Position numbers and translations under genes: made by a program
Notes under the pieces: generated by a model
Database searches by the model: none
Seen by the model: only the letters and a program-made list of their open reading frames with translations
Told to the model about the DNA's origin: nothing
Shown: piece by piece, positions 1 through 9,386 of the stretch
Numbering within the stretch: position 1 is the stretch's first letter
How the letters are laid out: the number at the start of each line of letters is the position of its first letter
Assembly: GCF_014236855.1 (NCBI RefSeq)
Contig: NZ_CP051261.1
Coordinates: 3,100,001-3,164,000 of the forward strand
From: Xanthomonas sp. SI
GTDB taxonomy: Bacteria; Pseudomonadota; Gammaproteobacteria; Xanthomonadales; Xanthomonadaceae
Length of the DNA stretch: 64,000 nucleotides
Reading direction: 5' to 3'

Positions 1-1
1 C

Positions 2-1039
2 CGCGAGTTGGGCCTCGGGTCAGCCGGCATCGTAGGGCTAGCCGAGGCGCGCGCCCGCGCAGCGCAGTTCCGGGTAGACCTGGCGGCAGGCATCATGCCC
101 ACTACCGCGCGCGCCAGGAGCCAGGCATCTATTGGCCTGACCTTTGAGCAGGCCACTGAAAAGTACCTTGCCAGCAAGGTTGCTGCTTTCAAGAACGACA
201 AGCACAAGGCGCAGTGGCGAAACACTCTTGAGACATATGCTCATCCGGTCTTCGGTGCGCTCGATGTAAAGCAGATCGACACCCCGCATATCCTGGCTGC
301 GTTGGAGCCGATTTGGCTCACTAAGAACGAGACAGCCAGCCGTGTGCGCGGTCGGATCGAACGGGTTCTCGCCTGGGCAACGGTGAACAAGCATCGCTCA
401 GGCGAAAACCCCGCTCGGTGGCGCGGGCATCTCTCAGAAGCCCTCGCAGCCCCAGCGCAGGCCAAGCGGGTTCAGCACCATGCCGCCCTGCCCTACAGCG
501 ACATGCCGCAATTCATGGCCGACCTTGCACAGCAGGTTGGCATAGGCGCGGCAGCACTTCGATTCGCTATCCTGACGGCCACACGCACTAGCGAAGTGCT
601 AGGGGCTTGCTGGGGCGAATTCGATCTACAGGAACGAACCTGGGTCATCCCCGCTGAGCGCATGAAGGCGGGCAAGGAACATCGTGTCCCACTGTCACGG
701 CAGGCTATGGCAGTGCTTACGCAGATGCAGGAATTCACTTCAAATGACGCCGCGAGCTTCGTGTTTCCTGGCGCGAAGCCAGGTGCGTCGCTGTCGAACA
801 TGGCGATGCTGTCAGCCCTGAAGCGTATGGGGCGAACTGATCTGACGACACACGGATTCCGCAGTTCCTTCCGTGATTGGGCGGGCCAAGAGACTCATCA
901 TCCGCGCGAGGTTATCGAGCATGCCCTCGCTCACCAACTGAAAGACAAGGCCGAAGCCGCTTACGCCCGTGGCGATCTACTGAGGAAGCGGCGTGTTCTT
1001 ATGGAAGACTGGTGCGCTTTCGCGTCGCCATCGGCGTAA
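2..1039 (+). CDS. P4-type tyrosine integrase (5' end cut by window edge)
   Basis: Site-specific recombinase that would insert and excise the element spanning roughly 1-9386. The reading frame is open from position 2, so the N-terminal part lies to the left of the window. The visible start (LGLGSAG...LAEAR) matches the end of the N-terminal arm-binding domain of P4-family integrases. Numbering from the codon at position 8, the catalytic set is visible: Arg193 in TATRTSE, Lys at about 220-223, His282/Arg285 in THGFRSSFRDW, His309 and Tyr319 in EAAYARGD. The catalytic domain looks intact, so the enzyme is probably functional. It is followed by a 159-bp gap with repeated boxes. P4-type integrases usually target tRNA genes, which fits the tRNA-Ser at 9297-9386. 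Confidence 0.93.
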   Translation, partial: RELGLGSAGIVGLAEARARAAQFRVDLAAGIMPTTARARSQASIGLTFEQATEKYLASKVAAFKNDKHKAQWRNTLETYAHPVFGALDVKQIDTPHILAALEPIWLTKNETASRVRGRIERVLAWATVNKHRSGENPARWRGHLSEALAAPAQAKRVQHHAALPYSDMPQFMADLAQQVGIGAAALRFAILTATRTSEVLGACWGEFDLQERTWVIPAERMKAGKEHRVPLSRQAMAVLTQMQEFTSNDAASFVFPGAKPGASLSNMAMLSALKRMGRTDLTTHGFRSSFRDWAGQETHHPREVIEHALAHQLKDKAEAAYARGDLLRKRRVLMEDWCAFASPSA

Positions 1040-1044
1040 CACAG

Positions 1045-1122
1045 GTATTCACATGCAAAATCGCCATGTGAATACCCCCATCTAACCTGTTGATCTGAAA
1101 GACCATTCCCTAATGTGAATAC
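1045..1122. repeat. Three copies of a GTATTCACAT / ATGTGAATAC box
   Basis: Directly after the integrase stop, GTATTCACATG (1045-1055) and CATGTGAATAC (1065-1075) form a perfect inverted repeat with 11-bp arms and a 9-nt spacer. A third copy, ATGTGAATAC, lies at 1113-1122 in the same orientation as the second. The set sits ahead of the AlpA-like gene at 1199. The spacing suggests protein-binding sites: an operator for the AlpA-like or another regulator, or integrase/excisionase arm sites. No T-run follows the hairpin, so a terminator is less likely. Confidence 0.7.
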
Positions 1123-1198
1123 TTCTCAAGCGGGAACCCCCGCGCAATGATGCTGCCACGCCTGAGACGACTTGGGCGATAAATGGAGCATCTAGCAC

Positions 1199-1405
1199 AT
1201 GTCAGAACACCGCCTTCAAGTTGAACGCCTCCCATCGGTCCTGGCGCGCGTCGGCCGCAGCCGCGCAAGCCTCTATCGCGATATCGCGGAAGGCCGATTC
1301 CCCGCCCCCTCTAAGATCGGCCCGCGCGCTATAGGCTGGGACCCCAGCGCCGTTGATCGATGGATTGCTGCGCGCTTTGAAACCGCGGAGGCATCCTCCC
1401 GATGA
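1199..1405 (+). CDS. AlpA-family DNA-binding protein (excisionase/regulator)
   Basis: Small 68-aa winged-helix protein of the AlpA/MerR-like excisionase type. The pattern SRASLYRDIAEGRFPAPSKI, followed by IGWDPSAVDRWI, is the usual HTH plus wing of the family, which controls excision or early genes in P4-like elements and prophages. A GGAG stands about 10 nt before the ATG. Its stop overlaps the next gene (ATGA), so the two are probably translationally coupled. The target could be the ATGTGAATAC boxes just upstream, but that is inference. Confidence 0.88.
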   Translation: MSEHRLQVERLPSVLARVGRSRASLYRDIAEGRFPAPSKIGPRAIGWDPSAVDRWIAARFETAEASSR

Positions 1406-1791
1406 GCGCACAAAAAAAACGCCACGGCGAGGCGGCCGTGGCGTCTAGTAATCCCGAAAACCCGAGCCACCGCGAAGAAGCTCACGAACAGAATGCATCG
1501 CTCGCTGCCCAAGAACACCTTGCGCATTTTCCGCCTGACGTTTTCAAACGTTCGGCGGCGTGGCACCTGGATCGCGCGCACCACGCGCGCAGCGTCGGTG
1601 AACTGAAGCACCATCTGCGGGCCTGGGCTATCCGGTGGGCCTGCTACACACGCGGCATCGGCTCGCACTTCGTTGAGTACGGCCAAGCTATGTTTGCGTC
1701 AGCCATCGCGACAAGCGGGCTGCGCGTCCGGTTCCGGGCTAAGGATGTTCGCGAGCTTTGCAGTGCGGCTGCGCACATCATGTGGGGTTGA
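1402..1791 (+). CDS. Hypothetical protein of the element's early operon
   Basis: Unrecognised 129-aa protein that starts inside the stop codon of the AlpA-like gene (ATGA) and ends 9 bp before the primase gene, so it is part of one operon. The first ~45 residues are polar and probably disordered (Lys, Ser, Glu, Asn-rich). The rest is predicted helical, with conserved-looking Trp, Cys and His residues (AWAIRWACYTRG). No signal peptide or membrane segment is visible. Position between a regulator and a replication protein suggests a replication accessory or regulatory role, without direct support. Confidence 0.7.
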   Translation: MSAQKKRHGEAAVASSNPENPSHREEAHEQNASLAAQEHLAHFPPDVFKRSAAWHLDRAHHARSVGELKHHLRAWAIRWACYTRGIGSHFVEYGQAMFASAIATSGLRVRFRAKDVRELCSAAAHIMWG

Positions 1792-1800
1792 GTCCAGACG

Positions 1801-4800
1801 ATGCCTGCAATTCGTTTCTGCGACTTCGTGGCCGCACGCTGGCCGACGCCCGAGGATGCGCTTGCCGAGTTCTTCGGCGATGCGCAAGCGGCCGCAGCTG
1901 AAATTGGCGTATTGCTGACGGACTTTCCCGCGCTTGATGGTGCGCGCAATTACCTGCCTGCCCTTAGCGGACGCCGTGACAAGCGACAGTTCGTAATCGC
2001 ATCTGCGACCACTGATCCAGACGGCACGGTGTGGCCCGCGCTAACTTTCAAATCGTTTAAACACGGCGGCGCGTTCGCTTTCTGGAAACCACGCGATGCC
2101 GCATGGCAGCTGTTCCGGAGCGCGGGCGATGCCGCAGCTGGCCTGGACGGCGCACAACTTACGCGGTACGCCGAGCGCGCCCGTCAGGCACGTGACCTTG
2201 CGCAGCAGCGCGCCGTAGAACGCGCCGCCGCTGACGAACTAGGCCGCACCGCCGCTGTCGATGCCGCGCGCGCTGCGTGGGACGCTGCTGCGCCGGCCAA
2301 CGACTCGCACCCGTACCTCAAAAGCAAGGGCGTGCGCTCCTACGGCCTGCGCATCGCGAGCGAAACCCTGCGCGCGCGGCTTTGGGACGTGGAGCGCGGC
2401 CGCTGGATCGATGACGCCATCGTCGTGCGTGGCGGCGATCTGCTGGTGCCGATGCACCTGCCAGACGGGCGCTTGGTCAATGTGCAGCGCATCGACGCGG
2501 GCGGTCGAAAGCTATTTCTGCGCGGCGGCCAGAAGCGAGGAACGTTCTTCCGTATCGAGGGCACTGGCCGCACCTGGCTTTGCGAGGGCGCGGCAACCGG
2601 CGCCAGCGTGCACGCCGCCACGGGTGAAGCTGTCGTCGTGGCGTTCGATGCCGGCAACATGGCGCACTGTGTCGGTCTGGCCGATATCGTCGCCGCCGAC
2701 CACGATACCAATGGCGCAGGCCAGCGGGCGGCAGAAGCAACCGGGCTTCCCTGGGCGTTGCCGCCGCAGGCTGGCGACGACTTCAACGACCTGCACCAGC
2801 GCGAAAGCATCGACGCCGTGCGCGCGGCCCTGATGAACCTGCGCCTGCCGCCGCTGCCCGAAGCGCCTGCGTTCGTGCGGCCGTTCGATCTGTCGCCTGT
2901 TGAAGTCCCGGCGTGCCGCGCTGACGCACTGCGCGCGCTCGGGCGAATCACCGACCCAACTGACGCCGCCGCCTTCGCGTGGGCATTGGCAAAGCGACTG
3001 GCGCTGGCTATTCCTGCGCGCGGCGAGACGGTCGAATCCGTTGCGGCCACCTTGCGCGATGTGCTGCCGCGCCATGTGCTGGCAGGCGACACCGTTGATG
3101 CGTTCGCTAGCGCGCTGCGTTGGATCGCTGAGCGTCGGCGGTCTTCGGCGCTGGCTGCGGTGCGCCCGTCCGCTGCCGCCCTGGCAGGCCACGACGTGCA
3201 GCACTTCCCGACCCTGCCCGACCTCGGCGCGGGAGACTATCGCGGCGTGATTGTCGTGCGCGCCCCGATGGGTTCAGGCAAAACCCAGCGCGTCGGCATT
3301 CCGTTCTCGGAATGGGCCAGGCGGCAGGACGGGCGCTTCGTGGCGCTCGCACACCGCCAAAGCCTCATCGCGGAGCTTGCGACCCGCTTGGGGTGCGACC
3401 ACTACCAGCGCATAGCAGGCGATGACGCCGTGCACGTTGATTCTTTGGCTACCTGCCTGCCCAGCATCGCCAAGGCCGACCACGCACAGATTTTTCGCGA
3501 AACGCGCTGGGTGTTCGTCGACGAAATCAGTCAGGTCGTGCGCAGCCTCGCGGCACGCGTCACTGTCGCCGACCGCAAGACCATGGCGGATGTCCTGGCC
3601 GCGCTGCGCGAACTTGTTTCACGCGCCGAATGCGTGATCGTGGCGGATGCCGGCATCGACGACCGAACAATTCGCTTCCTGGAATCCTGCCGCCCCGGCG
3701 AGCACTTCCGCATGATCGACGTGGATGCGCTACGGGCCGAACCGTTGCGTTGCGACTTCGGATTCGGACCGGATGCGCTGCGCCACGTTTACGGCGAAAT
3801 GCTCGCGGAACTCGCTGACGCTCGCCGACTGTGGGTCGCGTGCGGTGAGAAGTCCCGCGCAATCGAGTGCGCGCGACTGCTTGAGTCTTCGGGGCGTCGG
3901 GTGATGCTGGTCCATTCCGACAACAGCGGCAATCGCGAGCAAGCCGCGTTCCTGGCCGAGCCTGATCGCATGAGCCGCTTGTACGACGCGGTGGTCGCCA
4001 GTCCGGTGATTTCGTCGGGTGTGTCCGTTGAGCATCGCGGCATGCCGTGGTTCGACCGCGTGTTCGTGGTTGCGTCGGGCGCGACTGTGGTCCCCTCGGA
4101 TGCAATGCAGATGGCCCGGCGCGTGCGCTACGTGCGCCGGCTGACTGCGGTGGTCACGCCGTCGAGCCGTTCTGAAATTGATTACGCCGACGCGATCCTG
4201 ATTGGTCTGTCGCAGGCCGCCGAACTGGAAGGCCGCGCCACGCTTCCTAGTGACCTAGACGGCATCGTTGCCGACATCGAGGCCGGCGACGCGCGACAGC
4301 GGGCGGATTTCGCTGGCGGGCTTTGGTGGCTTGCGCAGGAAGCTGGCTACCAGGTTCATCCGATGGTTATCGCGGGCGACGGCGAGGTGTCAGCCGAAGG
4401 GCTGACGCTCCTTCGCGCCGAGATTGATCGCGAACAGCGCGACGCGATCCTTGGGGCGCGTGACCTCTCCGATTTCGAAGCCCGCCGCCTACGCGAGCGT
4501 CCAGCGATCAGCGAGGCAGACCGTGCGGCGCTGCTGCGGCATCGGATCGTGCGCGACCTGGGTTTGCAGGAAGGGCCGTGCTACGCCGACCTTGACGCTT
4601 GGGACAGTGGGCGCGGGCCACGCGCGTGGGACCGGTTCACGGCGGCCACGGCCGGCCTTGCGGATGCAAGCATGGAACCGGGAGTTGCCGACCTGACTCG
4701 GCGTCGGTTCGCTCGGGCGCGGGTCGGCGCGTACGCGGATCTGTTCGCCGGGTTCCGGCTGGGGCCGGGGTTCCGGGTGACCGCTGAAGTCGCGCAAGTG

Positions 4801-5349
4801 CTAGTGCAGCGGGCATTCGCTCGGCGGCAGTTGCTGGCGGTGCTGCATATCGTTCCCGCCAAATGGGCCGGGGAGCGATTCGCGTCGCCGGCCGGTAATG
4901 CGGCCACTCGGGCGGTTACCGATCTGTTCGCACGTCTCGGCCTGGAACTGCGGCGCCGGGAGGGAACGCCCACCCCCAAAAGTGGTCCAAACACCTTAGG
5001 TTGTTACGCCACTTTTGGGGGTGGATTGGAGCGAAATCGGTGGTACGAGGTCACGACCGAGTCCTGGTCCCGAACAGCCGAGCTTGCTGCGCGCCGCAAT
5101 ACACGACGGGTGCTGGACAGGGTTGCGTGCGAAACCGCGGATGACCGGTACTGGCTTGCCGTCCGCCGGGACATCATCGGCCGGCGTCTGAGCGGCGATG
5201 AGGCGGCGCGGTTGATCGTGGAGCATTGCCGAGCGCAGCCGGCCTGTACGGCGCAGCGGGCCGGACTGGGGCGTACCTTCGGGGCGCGGTCCACGGCATT
5301 CTGGCTGCGAGGTGTCTACGCGCCTGAATGGCTACCACTGGCGGCATGA
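1801..5349 (+). CDS. Toprim primase / CyRepA1-type replication helicase
   Basis: Large 1182-aa replication protein. Residues ~160-340 form a primase/Toprim unit of the phage-plasmid kind: HPYLKSKGV, then WLCEGAATGAS (Glu262), AADHD (Asp300, Asp302) and GDDFNDLH at ~325-332. Residues ~480-820 look like the CyRepA1 plasmid replication family: Walker A in RAPMGSGKT near 488-495, ALAHRQSL, and a DEXX-type Walker B in WVFVDEISQ near 571. The C-terminal ~350 residues are not recognised. It would prime and unwind the element's DNA, playing the role of P4 alpha. A perfect 15-bp inverted repeat lies inside the 3' part of the gene. The call is from motifs and architecture, not from an alignment. Confidence 0.82.
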   Translation: MPAIRFCDFVAARWPTPEDALAEFFGDAQAAAAEIGVLLTDFPALDGARNYLPALSGRRDKRQFVIASATTDPDGTVWPALTFKSFKHGGAFAFWKPRDAAWQLFRSAGDAAAGLDGAQLTRYAERARQARDLAQQRAVERAAADELGRTAAVDAARAAWDAAAPANDSHPYLKSKGVRSYGLRIASETLRARLWDVERGRWIDDAIVVRGGDLLVPMHLPDGRLVNVQRIDAGGRKLFLRGGQKRGTFFRIEGTGRTWLCEGAATGASVHAATGEAVVVAFDAGNMAHCVGLADIVAADHDTNGAGQRAAEATGLPWALPPQAGDDFNDLHQRESIDAVRAALMNLRLPPLPEAPAFVRPFDLSPVEVPACRADALRALGRITDPTDAAAFAWALAKRLALAIPARGETVESVAATLRDVLPRHVLAGDTVDAFASALRWIAERRRSSALAAVRPSAAALAGHDVQHFPTLPDLGAGDYRGVIVVRAPMGSGKTQRVGIPFSEWARRQDGRFVALAHRQSLIAELATRLGCDHYQRIAGDDAVHVDSLATCLPSIAKADHAQIFRETRWVFVDEISQVVRSLAARVTVADRKTMADVLAALRELVSRAECVIVADAGIDDRTIRFLESCRPGEHFRMIDVDALRAEPLRCDFGFGPDALRHVYGEMLAELADARRLWVACGEKSRAIECARLLESSGRRVMLVHSDNSGNREQAAFLAEPDRMSRLYDAVVASPVISSGVSVEHRGMPWFDRVFVVASGATVVPSDAMQMARRVRYVRRLTAVVTPSSRSEIDYADAILIGLSQAAELEGRATLPSDLDGIVADIEAGDARQRADFAGGLWWLAQEAGYQVHPMVIAGDGEVSAEGLTLLRAEIDREQRDAILGARDLSDFEARRLRERPAISEADRAALLRHRIVRDLGLQEGPCYADLDAWDSGRGPRAWDRFTAATAGLADASMEPGVADLTRRRFARARVGAYADLFAGFRLGPGFRVTAEVAQVLVQRAFARRQLLAVLHIVPAKWAGERFASPAGNAATRAVTDLFARLGLELRRREGTPTPKSGPNTLGCYATFGGGLERNRWYEVTTESWSRTAELAARRNTRRVLDRVACETADDRYWLAVRRDIIGRRLSGDEAARLIVEHCRAQPACTAQRAGLGRTFGARSTAFWLRGVYAPEWLPLAA
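4971..5023. repeat. Perfect 15-bp inverted repeat inside the replication gene
   Basis: CACCCCCAAAAGTGG (4971-4985) and its exact reverse complement CCACTTTTGGGGGTG (5009-5023) flank a 23-nt spacer. The structure is in coding sequence (codons ~1057-1075 of the primase/helicase), in a stretch rich in Pro, Gly and Thr. Such a long perfect dyad is not needed by the protein. A replication origin or initiator-binding site within the rep gene is the favoured reading. A structured mRNA element is the alternative. Confidence 0.75.
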
Positions 5350-5394
5350 GTTAGATTCAGCGAGCGTTATACCTAGGCGCAAGGGAGTCAAAAA

Positions 5395-5856
5395 ATGGAA
5401 TTGCATGCATTCAAGACAATAACCATTGGCGCAGCCGCTAATGGGAGTCTGTTATTCATTGAAGATCACTGGCATATAAAAGTGGAAATTCCAAACGAAG
5501 GAAGATATCTACTCAACCTGACGGGTAGCTTCGATTCTCCACTATGGACTGCCCACGATGACTCGACGGACATTTGCCTCACGATAGCCGATGACTATGT
5601 ATGGGAGCCTGACGCAGATTTTCCTGATAAGAAATGGAAGAAATTAAGCCATCTAAGTGTGGTGGTCACTGAAAAAGGGCCGGCAATAGTTGCAGAGATT
5701 GAAGGTAGATATAAATTCTTCCTGTTTTCAGGACAGCAAATCGCCTCGGCGAAGCGGGCCGAAGTTGTATTTAAGAACTTTAATATATTAATTCGCAAAG
5801 CGACAGGAACTTCATCCTTGTTACTCGCCAGGGTTGTCTCGCAACCTAGCAAATGA
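5395..5856 (+). CDS. AT-rich cargo gene, unknown function
   Basis: Unrecognised 153-aa soluble protein, predicted mostly beta (alternating hydrophobics in ITIGAAANGSLLFIEDHWHI and the middle third). There is no signal peptide or membrane segment. Base composition is visibly more AT-rich than every neighbour, with codons such as AAA, ATA and TTA common, so it was probably acquired separately (a moron). A GGGAG sits 8-12 nt before the ATG, and a strong terminator follows 14 bp after the stop. It therefore has its own transcription unit, 45 bp after the replication gene. Cargo genes in such slots often act in phage defence or exclusion, but nothing in the sequence proves this. Confidence 0.8.
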   Translation: MELHAFKTITIGAAANGSLLFIEDHWHIKVEIPNEGRYLLNLTGSFDSPLWTAHDDSTDICLTIADDYVWEPDADFPDKKWKKLSHLSVVVTEKGPAIVAEIEGRYKFFLFSGQQIASAKRAEVVFKNFNILIRKATGTSSLLLARVVSQPSK

Positions 5857-5869
5857 TAGAGCAACATCT

Positions 5870-5895
5870 AGCGCCCATGTGTTCGGGCGCTTTTT
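5870..5895 (+). terminator. Rho-independent terminator after the cargo gene
   Basis: AGCGCCC (5870-5876) pairs with GGGCGCT (5885-5891) around an 8-nt loop. The T-run TTTTT at 5891-5895 overlaps the last base of the stem. It ends transcription of the AT-rich gene 14 bp after its stop and insulates the capsid block. Confidence 0.85.
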
Positions 5896-6093
5896 CGTGG
5901 GTCCTTCCTAGAGGGGTACGGCCTGCGGGGTCGCCGACACCGCGGAATCTTAAATCTGCGTGCCATTCCGAAACTGTCTTTCTCATTACACCGTGAATTA
6001 AAGAATGGAATAGCTCAAGGCGTTTTTCCTCACTTACCACGCCCCGCGGTGTAAAGACTGCTTTACATCCACCATCTTTCGCTTGCATCTAGC
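5896..6093. promoter_or_regulatory. Structured intergenic region ahead of the capsid-like gene; dyad at 6050-6067
   Basis: A 198-bp gap with no convincing gene. It contains GGGTCCTTCC followed by G-rich and GTACGG-containing sequence near 5900-5930, two CCGCGG motifs, and the dyad TGTAAAG-ACTG-CTTTACA at 6050-6067, 26 bp before the ATG at 6094. The dyad is a good operator candidate for the downstream block. The first part could be a packaging (cos) site by position and by a remembered resemblance to sequences before small-terminase genes of siphophages. That comparison could not be checked. Confidence 0.4.
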
Positions 6094-7161
6094 ATGGATC
6101 GCGCCGCGGAAATTCCGCAAGTGGAAACGATGCCCTGCGAATCGGAAACTGGACGCGTCGACAAAATGTCGGCAATTCCCTTTTACCCGAGAACCCGCAG
6201 AAAAATGGATATTATCGAAAGTCTTTTCGCAGCTGCACGCGAAGCAACCGGCACGCGCACGCATCTGCCGGTCGGCGCCACTGAACCCACGTTCGTGGAA
6301 ACCGTTTCCCGAACCCGCTCGACCGCCATCGACCTCGGCGCGCCGCTGCCGCTGCTGACCGCCTACTTTGACTCCGAAGGCCGTCTGCGCCGCATCCCTG
6401 CGGGTCGCAGCAACAGCTACGGCGTGGCCGGCATCGACGTGCTGGCCGCCGCGCGCGCGCACTCACGTCTGGCCGCTTTCGGTGCCCAGCTGCTGCTGCG
6501 CGAACCGCCGATTGCGCCGCCAGGCGTCGGCGTTCAGGGCCTCGGCGCGCTGTCTGCTGAAACCTCCGGCCTGAGCATGATCCGGCCGCTGAAGCTCGAA
6601 ATCGTTGCCGATGGCACCGAAACCCCGACCACAAGCGAATTGCCCGTTGTCACCGCCCTGGCGGACTGGTCCGACGCGACCTTGGCGCCGTCGTATGCGA
6701 GCTACCTTCGGATTTCGCGCGCGGATTTCCGCCAGCGGCTGCTGGAAGGCACGCTAGCCGAAATTCTGGGAGCCGCCATCGTTGCAGGCCTCGGCCGCGT
6801 CGCCGATCAGGCGATCATGCGCGCGCTGGCAGCAGCGAACCTCGGCAGCTTCAGCCTCCCCGCCGCTGCCTCCGCAGGCGCTACGTTCGGCGACCTCCGC
6901 GCAGTGGTTGGCACCGCGGCAACTGGTGCGGCGGTCGGTGCCGACGGCGTACTGCGCGCGTCCGGCGTGCCCGCCGAACTCAGCGATGCCGGCGCAGAGA
7001 CGTTCGCAGGCGACTTCCGGAATTGCGGTGTGCTTTTCGACCGCGAGGTCCATGTTTCCGCCGAAAAAGTTGGTCTTGCCGGTGACATGCAGGTCAGCGT
7101 ATTCACGTCGGCCGTGGGCCTGGTGCCTGACCCGGCGCAGTTCTGGCGGGTGGCGGCATGA
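6094..7161 (+). CDS. Phage major capsid-like protein (HK97 fold, probable)
   Basis: 355-aa protein, or ~318 aa if translation begins at the ATG at 6205; no start has a strong ribosome site. From about residue 165 the layout follows HK97-type capsid proteins. PLKLEIVADGTETPTTSELP resembles the E-loop to spine transition. A long helical segment rich in Ala/Leu and Gly (LAEILGAAIVAGLGRV) follows, and then a C-terminal section containing FAGDFRNCGVLFDREVHV and ends VPDPAQFWRVA, as capsid subunits usually end. It would form the virion shell. No protease, portal or terminase is adjacent. It heads a run of overlapping genes (next start in ATGA). The call rests on pattern recognition. Confidence 0.6.
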   Translation: MDRAAEIPQVETMPCESETGRVDKMSAIPFYPRTRRKMDIIESLFAAAREATGTRTHLPVGATEPTFVETVSRTRSTAIDLGAPLPLLTAYFDSEGRLRRIPAGRSNSYGVAGIDVLAAARAHSRLAAFGAQLLLREPPIAPPGVGVQGLGALSAETSGLSMIRPLKLEIVADGTETPTTSELPVVTALADWSDATLAPSYASYLRISRADFRQRLLEGTLAEILGAAIVAGLGRVADQAIMRALAAANLGSFSLPAAASAGATFGDLRAVVGTAATGAAVGADGVLRASGVPAELSDAGAETFAGDFRNCGVLFDREVHVSAEKVGLAGDMQVSVFTSAVGLVPDPAQFWRVAA

Positions 7162-7571
7162 GCCGCACTTTGCTTCAGCGCCTGGACGCGGCCCGCCGCG
7201 CCTTCCTGGGCGGCGGCGAGGTTGATGCACGCAGCGTGGCAGCGTTCGCGCACAGTGCAATAGCCGGCGCAACCGTGTCCCGCTTGGCCGACGATGAAGA
7301 GGGTCCGCGTGTCGCTTTCCACCTGGGCGGCAATGCCTCCTTGATGTGGCGCCAGGACACCGAAGCGCGCGCCGAAATGGAGCGCCGCATTCGCGCTGCG
7401 TGGCCCGAACTTCCCAAGTCCGAAGTCCAGCGCGTGCTGGCGCATATCGATGCACGTGTGCACGCCGCGTTGCTGCGGCCGTCGCGTGGCGACGACCAGC
7501 AGAGCCATCGCCCGCGTGGTTGGGTCAACGACTGGCGCTTCGACGCTCACGACGCGGAGGCCGCACGATGA
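7158..7571 (+). CDS. Hypothetical protein of the virion block
   Basis: 137-aa unrecognised protein that starts inside the stop codon of the capsid-like gene (ATGA), so it is probably made at a coupled rate. It is predicted helical and polar, with a charged middle (AEMERRIRAAWPELPKSEV) and a C-terminal Trp/Asp-rich tail. No signal or membrane segment is visible. Its place immediately after a capsid-like gene suggests a head-completion, decoration or connector function, but no motif supports a specific one. Confidence 0.65.
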   Translation: MSRTLLQRLDAARRAFLGGGEVDARSVAAFAHSAIAGATVSRLADDEEGPRVAFHLGGNASLMWRQDTEARAEMERRIRAAWPELPKSEVQRVLAHIDARVHAALLRPSRGDDQQSHRPRGWVNDWRFDAHDAEAAR

Positions 7572-7636
7572 TCGTCTATATCGCTTGGGCGGCAATGAAT
7601 CTGGCGTGGGAACTGCGTATGTGGGGTGCCCGGTGA
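7568..7636 (+). CDS. Possible 22-aa hydrophobic peptide
   Basis: A 22-codon reading frame begins in the stop of the preceding gene (ATGA) and ends in the start of the next (GTGA). It encodes a hydrophobic, Trp-rich peptide beginning MIVYIAWAAMNLAW. The exact fit between two coupled genes argues that ribosomes traverse it, but it may serve only as a translational bridge. A membrane-active peptide, such as a tiny holin-like product, is conceivable but unsupported. Confidence 0.4.
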   Translation: MIVYIAWAAMNLAWELRMWGAR

Positions 7637-7971
7637 ACTACATCGTCGTAGCCCAGCTACAACCACGCGGTAAGGTCCGTGCTGTCGTGATCGGCATCGG
7701 CCGGAAGGCTTGGACGTTCTCGCCAAACCGTGCGCTACTCCGCGTCCGAAAGGCGAATCCCGATATCACAGCTAAAGCTGCTGGTGCGCTTGTCGATGAA
7801 CTGGCCCGATTGGCGGAAGCGGTCACCGGTCCTGTGCGCAAGGCGCTTGGCTTATCCCAGCCAGCTCCCCGGAAACCATCTGCCGCACAGGCGAAACTGC
7901 GCGTTCGGCGGAAGCCTGGAACCGTGAGCATCGGTCAACTGTCTCTTGCCGCGTTGAGGGAGGTTCGCTAA
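7633..7971 (+). CDS. Hypothetical basic protein of the virion block
   Basis: 112-aa protein from a GTG start overlapping the previous stop (GTGA). An in-frame extension back to 7450 would overlap the upstream gene, so the GTG is preferred. The N-terminal ~40 residues look beta-stranded (YIVVAQLQPRGKVRAVVIG). The rest is helical and very basic, with Lys/Arg/Pro-rich stretches, suggesting nucleic-acid contact. Unrecognised. The stop overlaps the next start (TAATG), continuing the coupled chain. Confidence 0.6.
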   Translation: MNYIVVAQLQPRGKVRAVVIGIGRKAWTFSPNRALLRVRKANPDITAKAAGALVDELARLAEAVTGPVRKALGLSQPAPRKPSAAQAKLRVRRKPGTVSIGQLSLAALREVR

Positions 7972-8612
7972 TGGCCTCCGGATATCGCAGCGGTGGAGTG
8001 GACTTCGACGACCTGTTCGAAGCCGGGACTAGTGGCACCGCCGTCCCTAGCGCGCGATCCGGGGGCGTTCCGCTTCGGTACGCGGCGCTCGGCAGCAGCG
8101 CAAAGCGCCCCGATGTCGGCTACCGCTACAACGGGTCTGACGTGTCAAACCTATGGTTACCGAAGGGCGCGGGTGTCGGATCGCTGCCGATCAACGGGCA
8201 GAACTTCTCAATTGGCGAGACAGTTCCGAACCTGGCAACAGGCAGCTGCGCAATCACTTTCCGCGCAAATCCGGATGGCACCTTCGCGGTGACCCCGGTG
8301 CGCAGCCACGGCGGCAACGGCGCCGTCACTACAGGATCGTGGCTTCCATCTGGGAGTAGCGCAAGCGACTTTCAGATTCAGTTCGAAGCCACAGCCGCTT
8401 CAGGCACAGCAGCGACCATCACGAACGAAGCATCTGCATACCAGGCGCTGACAACCGCACGTGCAATCACTGCGGCGCTCGGCCCGTATGGCAGTAGTGC
8501 CGGTTCGCGCGACTCGGTCACGTCGATCACGATCCGAATCAAGCGGGTATCTTCCGGTTCGGTCGGCGTCACCACGGTGACGTTTTCGCTCGCCGTGGAC
8601 GGCTCGGCATGA
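7971..8612 (+). CDS. Phage virion structural protein (tail-like, probable)
   Basis: 213-aa protein starting MASGYRSGGVDFDDLF. This opening, the repeated GYR/GVD-type units and the later DVSNLWLPKGAG recall structural proteins encoded in tail modules of xanthomonad and related siphophages (family recalled, not searched). The middle and C-terminus are Ser/Thr/Gly-rich beta sequence (VTSITIRIKRVSSGSVGVTT), compatible with a tail fibre or decoration domain. The start overlaps the previous stop, and its stop overlaps the next start (ATGA). A structural role fits its place in the capsid block, but no tail-length genes are present. Confidence 0.6.
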   Translation: MASGYRSGGVDFDDLFEAGTSGTAVPSARSGGVPLRYAALGSSAKRPDVGYRYNGSDVSNLWLPKGAGVGSLPINGQNFSIGETVPNLATGSCAITFRANPDGTFAVTPVRSHGGNGAVTTGSWLPSGSSASDFQIQFEATAASGTAATITNEASAYQALTTARAITAALGPYGSSAGSRDSVTSITIRIKRVSSGSVGVTTVTFSLAVDGSA

Positions 8613-9067
8613 TTGAGCCGGCATCGGAATTTCTTCTTCCGCAATCAGTCCGGGAGGTAGCGACCGTGATCGGCCGCCACCTGGCGCTGCTGCTTGCTGG
8701 CGAGGTTTTCCATAGCAGGGACCGTTGCGCGGATGGCAAGCGCAACGGCCGCCACGGACGCGTGTACATACCTGCTTCGCCGCGCGGGCGAAATTTCGAC
8801 CGCCTGTCGAGCATTGTCGGCGAAGAATCAGCACGCGCGCTGGTTCATGCCCTGGGTGGCAGCGAACTGCGCTTTGGGGCGTGCGCTGCCCTTGTAAACC
8901 GGGTACGTGATGCCAGCGTCCGTGACTACTGGCGCAACTCCACGCTAAGCGCTCGCTGGGTGGCATGGATGCACGACATTACCGAGCGTCAGGTCCGCAA
9001 CATCACAGCTGGCGAGCCGCGTCTCGCCCTGTGCCAAGCTCAGGTCACCGCCCGTGAAGCTGCCTGA
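8609..9067 (+). CDS. Mor-like transcription activator (probable)
   Basis: 152-aa protein coupled to the preceding gene by ATGA. The pattern RVYIPASPR, then VGEESARALVHALGGSELRF, then a C-terminal HTH-like stretch (WVAWMHDITERQVRNI) parallels the Mor/C family of phage middle/late activators. Those have an N-terminal dimerisation part and a C-terminal DNA-binding helix-turn-helix. It would switch on late genes of this element or respond to a helper phage. Encoding it at the end of the block it may regulate implies feedback. The match is by pattern only. Other small HTH regulators are possible. Confidence 0.5.
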   Translation: MIEPASEFLLPQSVREVATVIGRHLALLLAGEVFHSRDRCADGKRNGRHGRVYIPASPRGRNFDRLSSIVGEESARALVHALGGSELRFGACAALVNRVRDASVRDYWRNSTLSARWVAWMHDITERQVRNITAGEPRLALCQAQVTAREAA

Positions 9068-9218
9068 GGTCATCCAGCGTACCGGCCTGTCCGTCGGCGC
9101 GCTCTACCGCGCAATGGCGGCTGGGCGCTTCCCCCTGCCTGTGCGGCGAGGCGGGCGGGTCAGCTGGCGGCGCGCCGAGGTTGAAGCGTGGGTGGACTCC
9201 GTAACACCCGTCCAATAA
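9054..9218 (+). CDS. Second AlpA-like helix-turn-helix protein
   Basis: 54-aa product from a GTG codon inside the end of the Mor-like gene. It begins MKLPEVIQRTGLS, continues VGALYRAMAAGRFPLPV and RVSWRRAEVEAWV, which is the AlpA/excisionase HTH plus wing and closely parallels the protein at 1199-1405. It is the last gene before the element's right end. Excisionase or directionality factor is plausible. It could also act on the palindromes nearby. The element thus carries two members of one family at opposite ends. Confidence 0.75.
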   Translation: MKLPEVIQRTGLSVGALYRAMAAGRFPLPVRRGGRVSWRRAEVEAWVDSVTPVQ

Positions 9219-9219
9219 A

Positions 9220-9241
9220 ACACGGAAACAGACACGGAAAC
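9220..9241. repeat. Direct repeat ACACGGAAAC, two copies
   Basis: ACACGGAAAC at 9220-9229 and 9232-9241, with a 12-bp period, lies between the last gene of the element and the terminator stem. Closely spaced repeats near an attachment end can be integrase arm sites or regulator sites. Confidence 0.5.
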
Positions 9242-9269
9242 GGCCAGATTAATCTGGCCGTTTTTCTTT
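9238..9269. terminator. Terminator at the right end of the element
   Basis: CGGCCAGATT (9241-9250) is followed immediately by AATCTGGCCG (9251-9260), a perfect 20-bp palindrome flanked by AAA and TTTTTCTTT. It terminates rightward transcription from the element and, with the upstream A-run, could work on both strands. It stands 28 bp from the tRNA-Ser. Confidence 0.85.
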
Positions 9270-9296
9270 ATAAATCAATTACTTATAGATTATTAT

Positions 9297-9386
9297 TGGC
9301 GGAGAGAGTGGGATTCGAACCCACGGAAGGTTTGACCCTTCGCCGGTTTTCAAGACCGGTGCCTTAAACCGCTCGGCCATCTCTCC
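9297..9386 (-). tRNA. tRNA-Ser (anticodon UGA)
   Basis: Read on the minus strand, the gene begins GGAGAGA (9386-9380) and ends TCTCTCC, then G and encoded CCA (9297-9300). The anticodon arm CCGGT-CTTGAAA-ACCGG gives UGA, complementary to positions 9350-9352. The T-arm GGTTCGAATCC and a long class II variable arm (CGAAGGGTCAAACCTTCC region) are clear. Its 3' end faces the mobile element, the usual site where P4-type integrases insert while restoring the tRNA. The tRNA is intact. Confidence 0.97.

Follow-up and report, generated by a model that had tools for sequence, protein, structure and literature searches.

A capsid-bearing, satellite-like element without recognised portal or terminase genes in Xanthomonas sp. 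SI

Introduction

Gram-negative phage-inducible chromosomal islands (PICIs) carry an integrase, a replication module and a master regulator in conserved order, typically measure 12–15 kb, occupy attachment sites that are never occupied by prophages and depend on a helper phage for induction and packaging (PMC6092414). Capsid homologues are encoded by PmCI172 and SaPIbov5 (PMC6092414, PMC6893505) and by EcCICFT073, which is nevertheless packaged in normal-sized heads with lambda (PMC6893505), giving phage-sized packaged DNA (PMC6092414). Here we describe an integrated element of 9,627 bp in Xanthomonas sp. SI, the right 97% of which forms the first 9,386 bases of the window, that is, the whole 64,000-nucleotide stretch analysed (positions 3,100,001–3,164,000 within one 5.25-Mb contig, NZ_CP051261.1). 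The element is bounded by direct repeats and holds an integrase, AlpA-like regulators, a replicase, one capsid gene, a conserved capsid-adjacent gene (orf137), a tail-fibre-locus gene and a late activator, with no recognised portal or terminase. In our judgement it is probably an intact PICI-type satellite that places its own capsid protein in helper particles and borrows the portal, large terminase and tail.

Other satellites deal with the helper head differently. The SaPIbov5 protein Ccm is 24% identical to the helper capsid protein, sits in the pentamers and converts prolate heads to T=4 heads (PMC8569155). Capsid-forming PICIs (cf-PICIs) encode a capsid protein, protease, portal, connectors, both terminases and HNH, and P4 redirects the helper capsid with Sid (PMC10690885). 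Phage-inducible chromosomal minimalist islands (PICMIs) package concatemers and have no capsid-remodelling genes (PMC10803314). The original prediction, made from the bases of the window, had taken a capsid gene without packaging genes for a combination unlike those of known satellites, a view corrected by the capsid homologues of the CFT073 island, PmCI172 and SaPIbov5.

A bounded element at tRNA-Ser(tga)

Coordinates are those of the window, negative numbers lying upstream of its position 1. An exact 15-nt repeat of the 3′ end of tRNA-Ser(tga), at −330 and 9297, bounds the element. The original prediction had rightly seen a tRNA-Ser at the right end; its left end, set at window base 1, has to be moved. 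Because attL at −330 and the integrase start at −160 both lie outside the window, the integrase gene is cut by the window edge. The genes follow one another in this order up to the tRNA-Ser:

1–1039 in the window (GTG start at −160), plus strand: tyrosine integrase (int); Pfam Phage_int_M/Phage_integrase, phrog_1; 74% identity to the integrase of Xanthomonas sp. Leaf148
1199–1405, plus strand: AlpA-like regulator 1 (alpA1); PF05930, E 7e-12; 80% to Leaf148
1402–1791, plus strand: orf129, conserved 129-aa protein preceding the replicase; 46% to X. bromi, 40% to Leaf148
1801–5349, plus strand: Toprim-helicase replication protein of the CyRepA1 family (replicase); NF042913, E 7e-106; phrog_4913, E 1e-79; about 70% to X. 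bromi and Leaf148
5395–5856, plus strand: orf153, 153 aa, low GC content (44%), located between the replicase and capsid genes
6094–7161, plus strand: HK97-fold major capsid protein; fold matches and homologues carrying a fused prohead protease
7158–7571, plus strand: orf137, conserved capsid-adjacent protein; 35–36% to X. bromi and Leaf148, 29% to the more distant locus L021
7633–7971, plus strand: orf112, probable 112-aa gene; open frame, GTG start assumed
7971–8612, plus strand: tail-fibre-locus protein; phrog_11610, E 1e-37
8609–9067, plus strand: Mor-like late transcription activator (mor); phrog_836, E 2e-17; 50–52% to Leaf148 and X. bromi
9054–9218, plus strand: AlpA-like regulator 2 (alpA2); 43–44% to AlpA-like proteins of an E. 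coli fis island and the CFT073 island
9297–9311, no strand: attR, exact 15-nt repeat; partner attL at −330 to −316, outside the window
9297–9386, minus strand: tRNA-Ser(tga), the integration target; ARAGORN

Ten element proteins were scanned against Pfam and PHROG with a limit of E 1, and nine of those genes (orf112 in a shorter frame, the capsid from 6130) plus alpA2 against NCBIfam. No terminase, portal, protease, tape-measure or lysis family matched an element protein in these scans, in agreement with the original prediction that no such gene was visible. Its calls of a tyrosine integrase (Pfam, PHROG), an AlpA-like gene (Pfam) and a Toprim/CyRepA1 gene (Pfam, PHROG, NCBIfam) were confirmed, and so was that of a tail-related gene by phrog_11610. 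Its Mor-like activator holds by the PHROG match and falls short in Pfam, where Mor scores 15.2 bits and the cut-off is 24.9. The second AlpA-like gene, orf137, orf112 and orf153 are additions to it. Neither Pfam nor PHROG matched orf129, for which NCBIfam gave only sub-cut-off matches; alpA2 had no NCBIfam match, and orf112 no family match in PHROG (with a longer frame) or NCBIfam. A 14-nt repeat, ATAAAACACGGAAA, lies near both ends of the element, at −190 and 9215, and may be an integrase arm site. The remaining window, judged by eye from the list of open reading frames (ORFs), reads as ordinary chromosome.

The capsid gene

A fold search with the capsid returned 38 PDB matches at E ≤ 0.001, all titled capsids or encapsulins; 7rwz (SaPIbov5 Ccm) is among them, and the fold matches obtained also include 9gyi (EcCI2). 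No meaningful family match was found in Pfam or PHROG. Encapsulins and capsids share this fold, so the fold match does not discriminate between them. The identity as a capsid, proposed originally and upheld here, follows from the fold matches together with homologues fused to a prohead protease (L018, L019, L121 and P0006). No such protease is recognised in the window element. One pilin match, the sole match of the capsid profile against PDB sequences (E 0.047), is regarded as chance. The gene has in-frame ATGs at 6094, 6130, 6166 and 6205, and close homologues start near 6205. The adjacent orf137 has a predicted structure (pLDDT 70) for which neither PDB nor the viral libraries gave a fold match at E ≤ 0.001; an E. 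coli counterpart, orf105, resembles the proteins at the same position in L021, L018 and L024.

The capsid diverges fast (42–47% among relatives). When three protease-free capsids were searched by tblastn against 50,697 phage records, none matched. A protease-fusion query matched 90 records; among the best 15, 14 match only residues 18–222 and one residues 34–288, of 522. In the fusion proteins of L018, L019 and L121 the protease half is 42–52% identical to FoX5, and the capsid half has no tblastn match to FoX5. Judged by such comparisons, the two halves of the fusion appear to have very different histories.

Closest relatives

The close capsid set comprises two further loci, in X. bromi LMG947 (L026) and Xanthomonas sp. 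Leaf148 (L027); the X. bromi genome and the presumed Leaf148 genome belong to the same family as the source genome and to a different genus. Both elements measure 9.4–9.5 kb and share with the window a core order of orf129, replicase (69–70% identity), capsid (44–45%), orf137 (35–36%) and mor (50–52%). A recurrence of the gene order in other xanthomonads, which the original prediction had proposed to look for, is thus found. A degraded subset of a complete prophage, named there as the refuting observation, is not what these two relatives, the closest found, present: they show the same bounded core order, also without portal and terminase. The Leaf148 element occupies the same tRNA-Ser with a 16-nt repeat, next to the same gene as in the window (LysR-type by eye); its integrase corresponds to that of the window (74%), and AlpA-like matches are present at either side. 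That of X. bromi sits at tRNA-Phe with a 20-nt repeat and has another integrase, with a 61-residue match to the integrase of the E. coli island; next to its mor lies a single short AlpA-like match, and a small helix-turn-helix (HTH) ORF, recognised by eye, precedes orf129. Neither relative shows the fibre-locus gene.

Ratios of non-synonymous to synonymous substitution (dN/dS; Nei–Gojobori, own script) are 0.16–0.21 for the replicase among the window, L026 and L027. Among the E. coli-type members described below they are 0.08–0.21 for the capsid, 0.11 for the adjacent orf and 0.06–0.21 for the tape measure. The replicase and the E. coli-type capsid, adjacent orf and tape measure are under purifying selection.

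The low-GC orf153 has no family match below E 0.1 (Pfam, PHROG, NCBIfam) and no tblastn match in L026 or L027, and is probably a cargo gene. In Leaf148 the same position between replicase and capsid is filled by an ORF on the minus strand (L027:8879–9379) that we take to be PemK/MazF-like. The slot is likely a cargo slot.

Wider spread of the capsid family

Genome samples each include the source genome, and few candidates were scored per genome at first look, so that all counts are lower bounds. The capsid was found in at least 11 of 297 genomes of the family (11 of 395 by profile search) and in one of 20 genomes of the genus and one of 369 of the class, the own genome each time. The 11 of 297 include one weak match (L025; E 5.5e-4, 28%) that was dropped and is absent from the profile search. 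The ten capsid regions are L016–L025, of which L016 is the X. bromi locus again. Direct repeats enclose 9.1 kb in L018 (20 nt), 8.8 kb in L022 (24 nt) and 8.5 kb in L020 (only 13 nt); no bounding repeats were found for L017, L021 and L023. L017 lies beside a tmRNA, with a neighbouring ORF of 1,685 aa. For the replicase, two weak partial matches were found in the genus, and five viral contigs with a distant replicase (L028–L032) had no capsid match.

As a single-protein query the window capsid has no match in IMG/VR. An alignment of more distant capsid members found one contig, L121, which has a 127-bp terminal repeat, from which we infer a circle of 8,155 bp; it encodes a protease–capsid fusion, two small genes, an integrase, a replicase 29% identical to that of the window over 960 residues, and two further small genes. 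Since IMG/VR consists of predicted viral contigs, L121 does not demonstrate that a particle exists. The capsid is also matched, with 32–34% identity across 56% of its length, by five plasmid records. Four of them, from E. coli, Proteus and Salmonella, are closed at 8.9–9.3 kb and carry the capsid, a primase and a tape measure; the fifth (L128, 17.4 kb) contains the gene set nearly twice, offset by about 8.9 kb, in halves that are not exact copies. Three integrase queries found no match in the five records. The records inspected label the capsid gene a hypothetical protein and call the circles simply plasmids; such elements may therefore escape satellite detectors.

A search of 5,426 complete E. 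coli genomes with the DNA of one plasmid found matches in 65, at 64 chromosomal places and on one plasmid. None of these matches reaches 80% of the plasmid; the 40 listed cover 38–69% of it and all name the tape-measure gene. Three chromosomal cases inspected all lie between yhdJ and fis; the one fis island tested for repeats spans 9,573 bp between copies at least 16 nt long. The plasmids L124–L127 share the half with capsid and tape measure with the fis islands L129–L131, and their other half is unmatched on those chromosomes among the megablast matches listed. The sequences suggest that integrated and plasmid forms have exchanged a module. Taken together, the bounded elements (window, L026, L027, L018, L022, L020 and the E. 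coli fis island) measure 8.5–9.6 kb, and bounded or closed single-unit members span 8.2–9.6 kb.

Packaging and tail genes

The large terminase (TerL) and portal proteins of FoX5, PPpW-3 and Mica found no tblastn match in 17 element segments, the window included; as a positive control, all six queries detected FoX5. The panel includes L019 and L021, which run off their contigs, and L023 and L024, whose ends are assumed; L017 lies outside it. Other terminase and portal types were covered by the family scans of selected proteins. A small terminase (TerS) similar to FoX/PPpW-3 was matched in five of the 17 segments (L019, L021, L022, L024 and the Salmonella plasmid), with L023 reaching only E 0.03. 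The match on the Salmonella plasmid pR17.0904_9.3k (L127:2319–2798) to the small terminase of FoX5/PPpW-3 is annotated as an AbiEi-family antitoxin-domain protein, possibly a misannotation.

The tail gene varies. A tape measure follows the capsid and adjacent gene in L021, L024 and the enterobacterial forms (in pieces in L128); that of E. coli is 33–37% identical to those of L021, L024 and L019, and the tape measure is 43–49% identical to that of PPpW-3. L019 has a tape measure cut by the contig end, L020 a C-terminal tape-measure-like piece and L018 a gpI-like baseplate protein, and in the window the fibre-locus protein takes the tail-gene role. No tail gene was recognised in L026, L027, L121 or L022.

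Homologues of the fibre-locus gene stand directly after a tail-fibre or minor-tail gene in Smp131, FoX5 and Rb1, and its product is a candidate fibre tip or chaperone. A search for related proteins returned 35, counting that of the window, and 63 IMG/VR contigs carry the gene; among 60 genomes drawn as relatives it was found in the own genome only. Several of these contigs (within L061–L119) measure 19–21 kb and could be tailocin-like tail clusters.

Interpretation

The gene content agrees with the original prediction of an intact, satellite-like element that probably depends on a helper for packaging. Beyond gene content, the mechanism of such a satellite is our proposal. A helper phage would trigger AlpA and the Mor-like activator, the integrase would excise a circle and the CyRepA1 protein would replicate it. 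The satellite capsid protein would then join shells nucleated by the helper portal, with orf137 assisting; it would either contribute to a mosaic shell, as SaPIbov5 Ccm does, or make up the bulk of it. The resulting small heads would fit about 9 kb, and the helper would supply portal, large terminase and tail, onto which the fibre-locus protein may be added. The probable helper is a contractile-tailed cos phage of the type represented by FoX, PPpW-3 and Mica, because the borrowed genes in relatives point to phages like these and Persinger: the protease half at 42–52% to FoX5, the tape measure at 43–49% to PPpW-3, a TerS similar to FoX/Persinger and the gpI-like protein.

Several observations weigh against this picture. 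The window capsid has a dN/dS of about 0.40 against both L026 and L027, with dS near saturation. TerS is unmatched by tblastn in 12 of the 17 segments, the window among them. The source genome has no match to a FoX-type capsid or to PF05876, PF04860, PF05136 or PF05125 (one of these searches lacking a positive control), so the helper is deduced from relatives only. The gpI-like and fibre-locus homologies also occur in P2-like phages such as Smp131, so that another helper type is possible. Compared with the FoX-type capsid, the satellite capsid half reaches an hhalign probability of 16 at best (weak, C-terminal) and the close set gives no match, so that compatibility with the portal of that helper stays conjecture.

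Unlikely, in our estimate, is an interference module, in which the capsid and tail proteins would poison helper assembly as decoys or dominant negatives and protect the host, and unmodified helper particles would package the element. The lack of a protease in several members and of any portal found, and a tail gene that differs among members (tape measure, gpI-like, fibre-locus), would fit it, as would EcCICFT073, whose lone capsid gene went with phage-sized packaged DNA; the narrow size class of 8.2–9.6 kb, which suggests a packaging limit, and the purifying selection on the tape measure speak against it. A plasmid or integrative element living outside particles, with the capsid forming an encapsulin-like compartment, is distinctly improbable: closed plasmid records exist and encapsulins are among the fold matches, but the shared fold does not discriminate, and tail genes, small terminase, protease fusion and late activator point to virion assembly. 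Least probable of all is a decayed prophage, a remnant that retained the capsid and fibre-locus genes by chance. The capsid is confined to the own genome among 20 of the genus and diverges fast, as such a remnant might; that reading was rejected on the core order and attachment-site repeats shared by two relatives in which no portal or terminase was found, the closed or inferred 8–9-kb circles, the purifying selection, and the phage-record searches, in which protease-free capsids were unmatched and the fusion matches (best 15 of 90) stayed within residues 18–288.

For the helper-dependent satellite with its own capsid, a broader proposal is possible, and we put it forward tentatively. A broad lineage of 8–10-kb satellites, integrated or plasmid, may rebuild the borrowed virion at both ends. 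The satellites' own capsid, which was absent from all phage records searched, would resize the head. A single interchangeable tail gene, coding for a tape measure, a gpI-like baseplate protein or the fibre-locus protein, would resize or redirect the helper tail, with portal, large terminase and the remaining tail stolen. If this is true, the lone satellite capsid represents a separate lineage extending from Xanthomonadaceae to Enterobacterales, and is more than a peculiarity of a few PICIs. Through the E. coli members it becomes testable how a satellite capsid works with a helper portal and why a single tail gene is kept.

Comparison with known satellites

Compared with Gram-negative PICIs, the element has the conserved order of integrase, replication and regulator genes, with the same core in L026 and L027. 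It is smaller than typical (9,627 bp as opposed to 12–15 kb) and has capsid and fibre-locus genes, the CFT073 island itself also carrying a capsid gene. That island (NC_004431, 1377930–1388654) contains an integrase, an HTH regulator, a primase, a ‘major capsid protein’ and a head decoration protein, with no terminase or portal annotated, and from its place and gene content we infer that it is EcCICFT073. As in the window, integrase, HTH/AlpA-like regulator and primase are followed by one capsid gene, with 23% identity between the integrases and 42–44% between AlpA proteins. The island differs in its capsid, not similar by blastp (E < 0.05), in its head decoration gene, ssb and other primase, and in having no annotated tail gene.

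P4 is not known to have a capsid gene of its own. P4-like satellites resemble the element in size, integrase, AlpA-like protein and helper-dependent packaging. The present replicase is CyRepA1 by NCBIfam; no Sid/Psu-type family matched the element proteins in Pfam or PHROG, from which distant forms could escape. With cf-PICIs the element has its own major capsid protein in common; portal, connectors, both terminases, protease and HNH are not recognised, and membership was ruled out on the portal and terminases. PICMIs share the core of int, alpA and replication genes, and the E. coli relatives also lie at fis.

Closer parallels are offered by satellites with a capsid homologue. The Pasteurella PICI PmCI172, likened here by description only, has one, and small heads of T=4 size are reported for it beside a Mu-like myovirus (PMC6092414, PMC6893505). 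SaPIbov5 Ccm is likewise an HK97-fold capsid homologue on a satellite without its own portal. Ccm helps to build small shells (PMC8569155) and is homologous to the helper capsid, whereas no such helper link was found for the present capsid. For EcCICFT073, PmCI172, SaPIbov5 and cf-PICIs, the excerpts available (PMC6893505, PMC6092414, PMC8569155, PMC10690885) do not mention a capsid combined with one exchangeable tail gene, and no satellite pairing a capsid with a tape-measure gene was found in the mostly open-access literature searched, with several queries narrow. By analogy with the capsid precedents EcCICFT073, PmCI172 and SaPIbov5 Ccm, the element most likely works as these do. A lone capsid gene thus has precedent; the present capsid lineage and the design of a capsid plus one tail gene look new.

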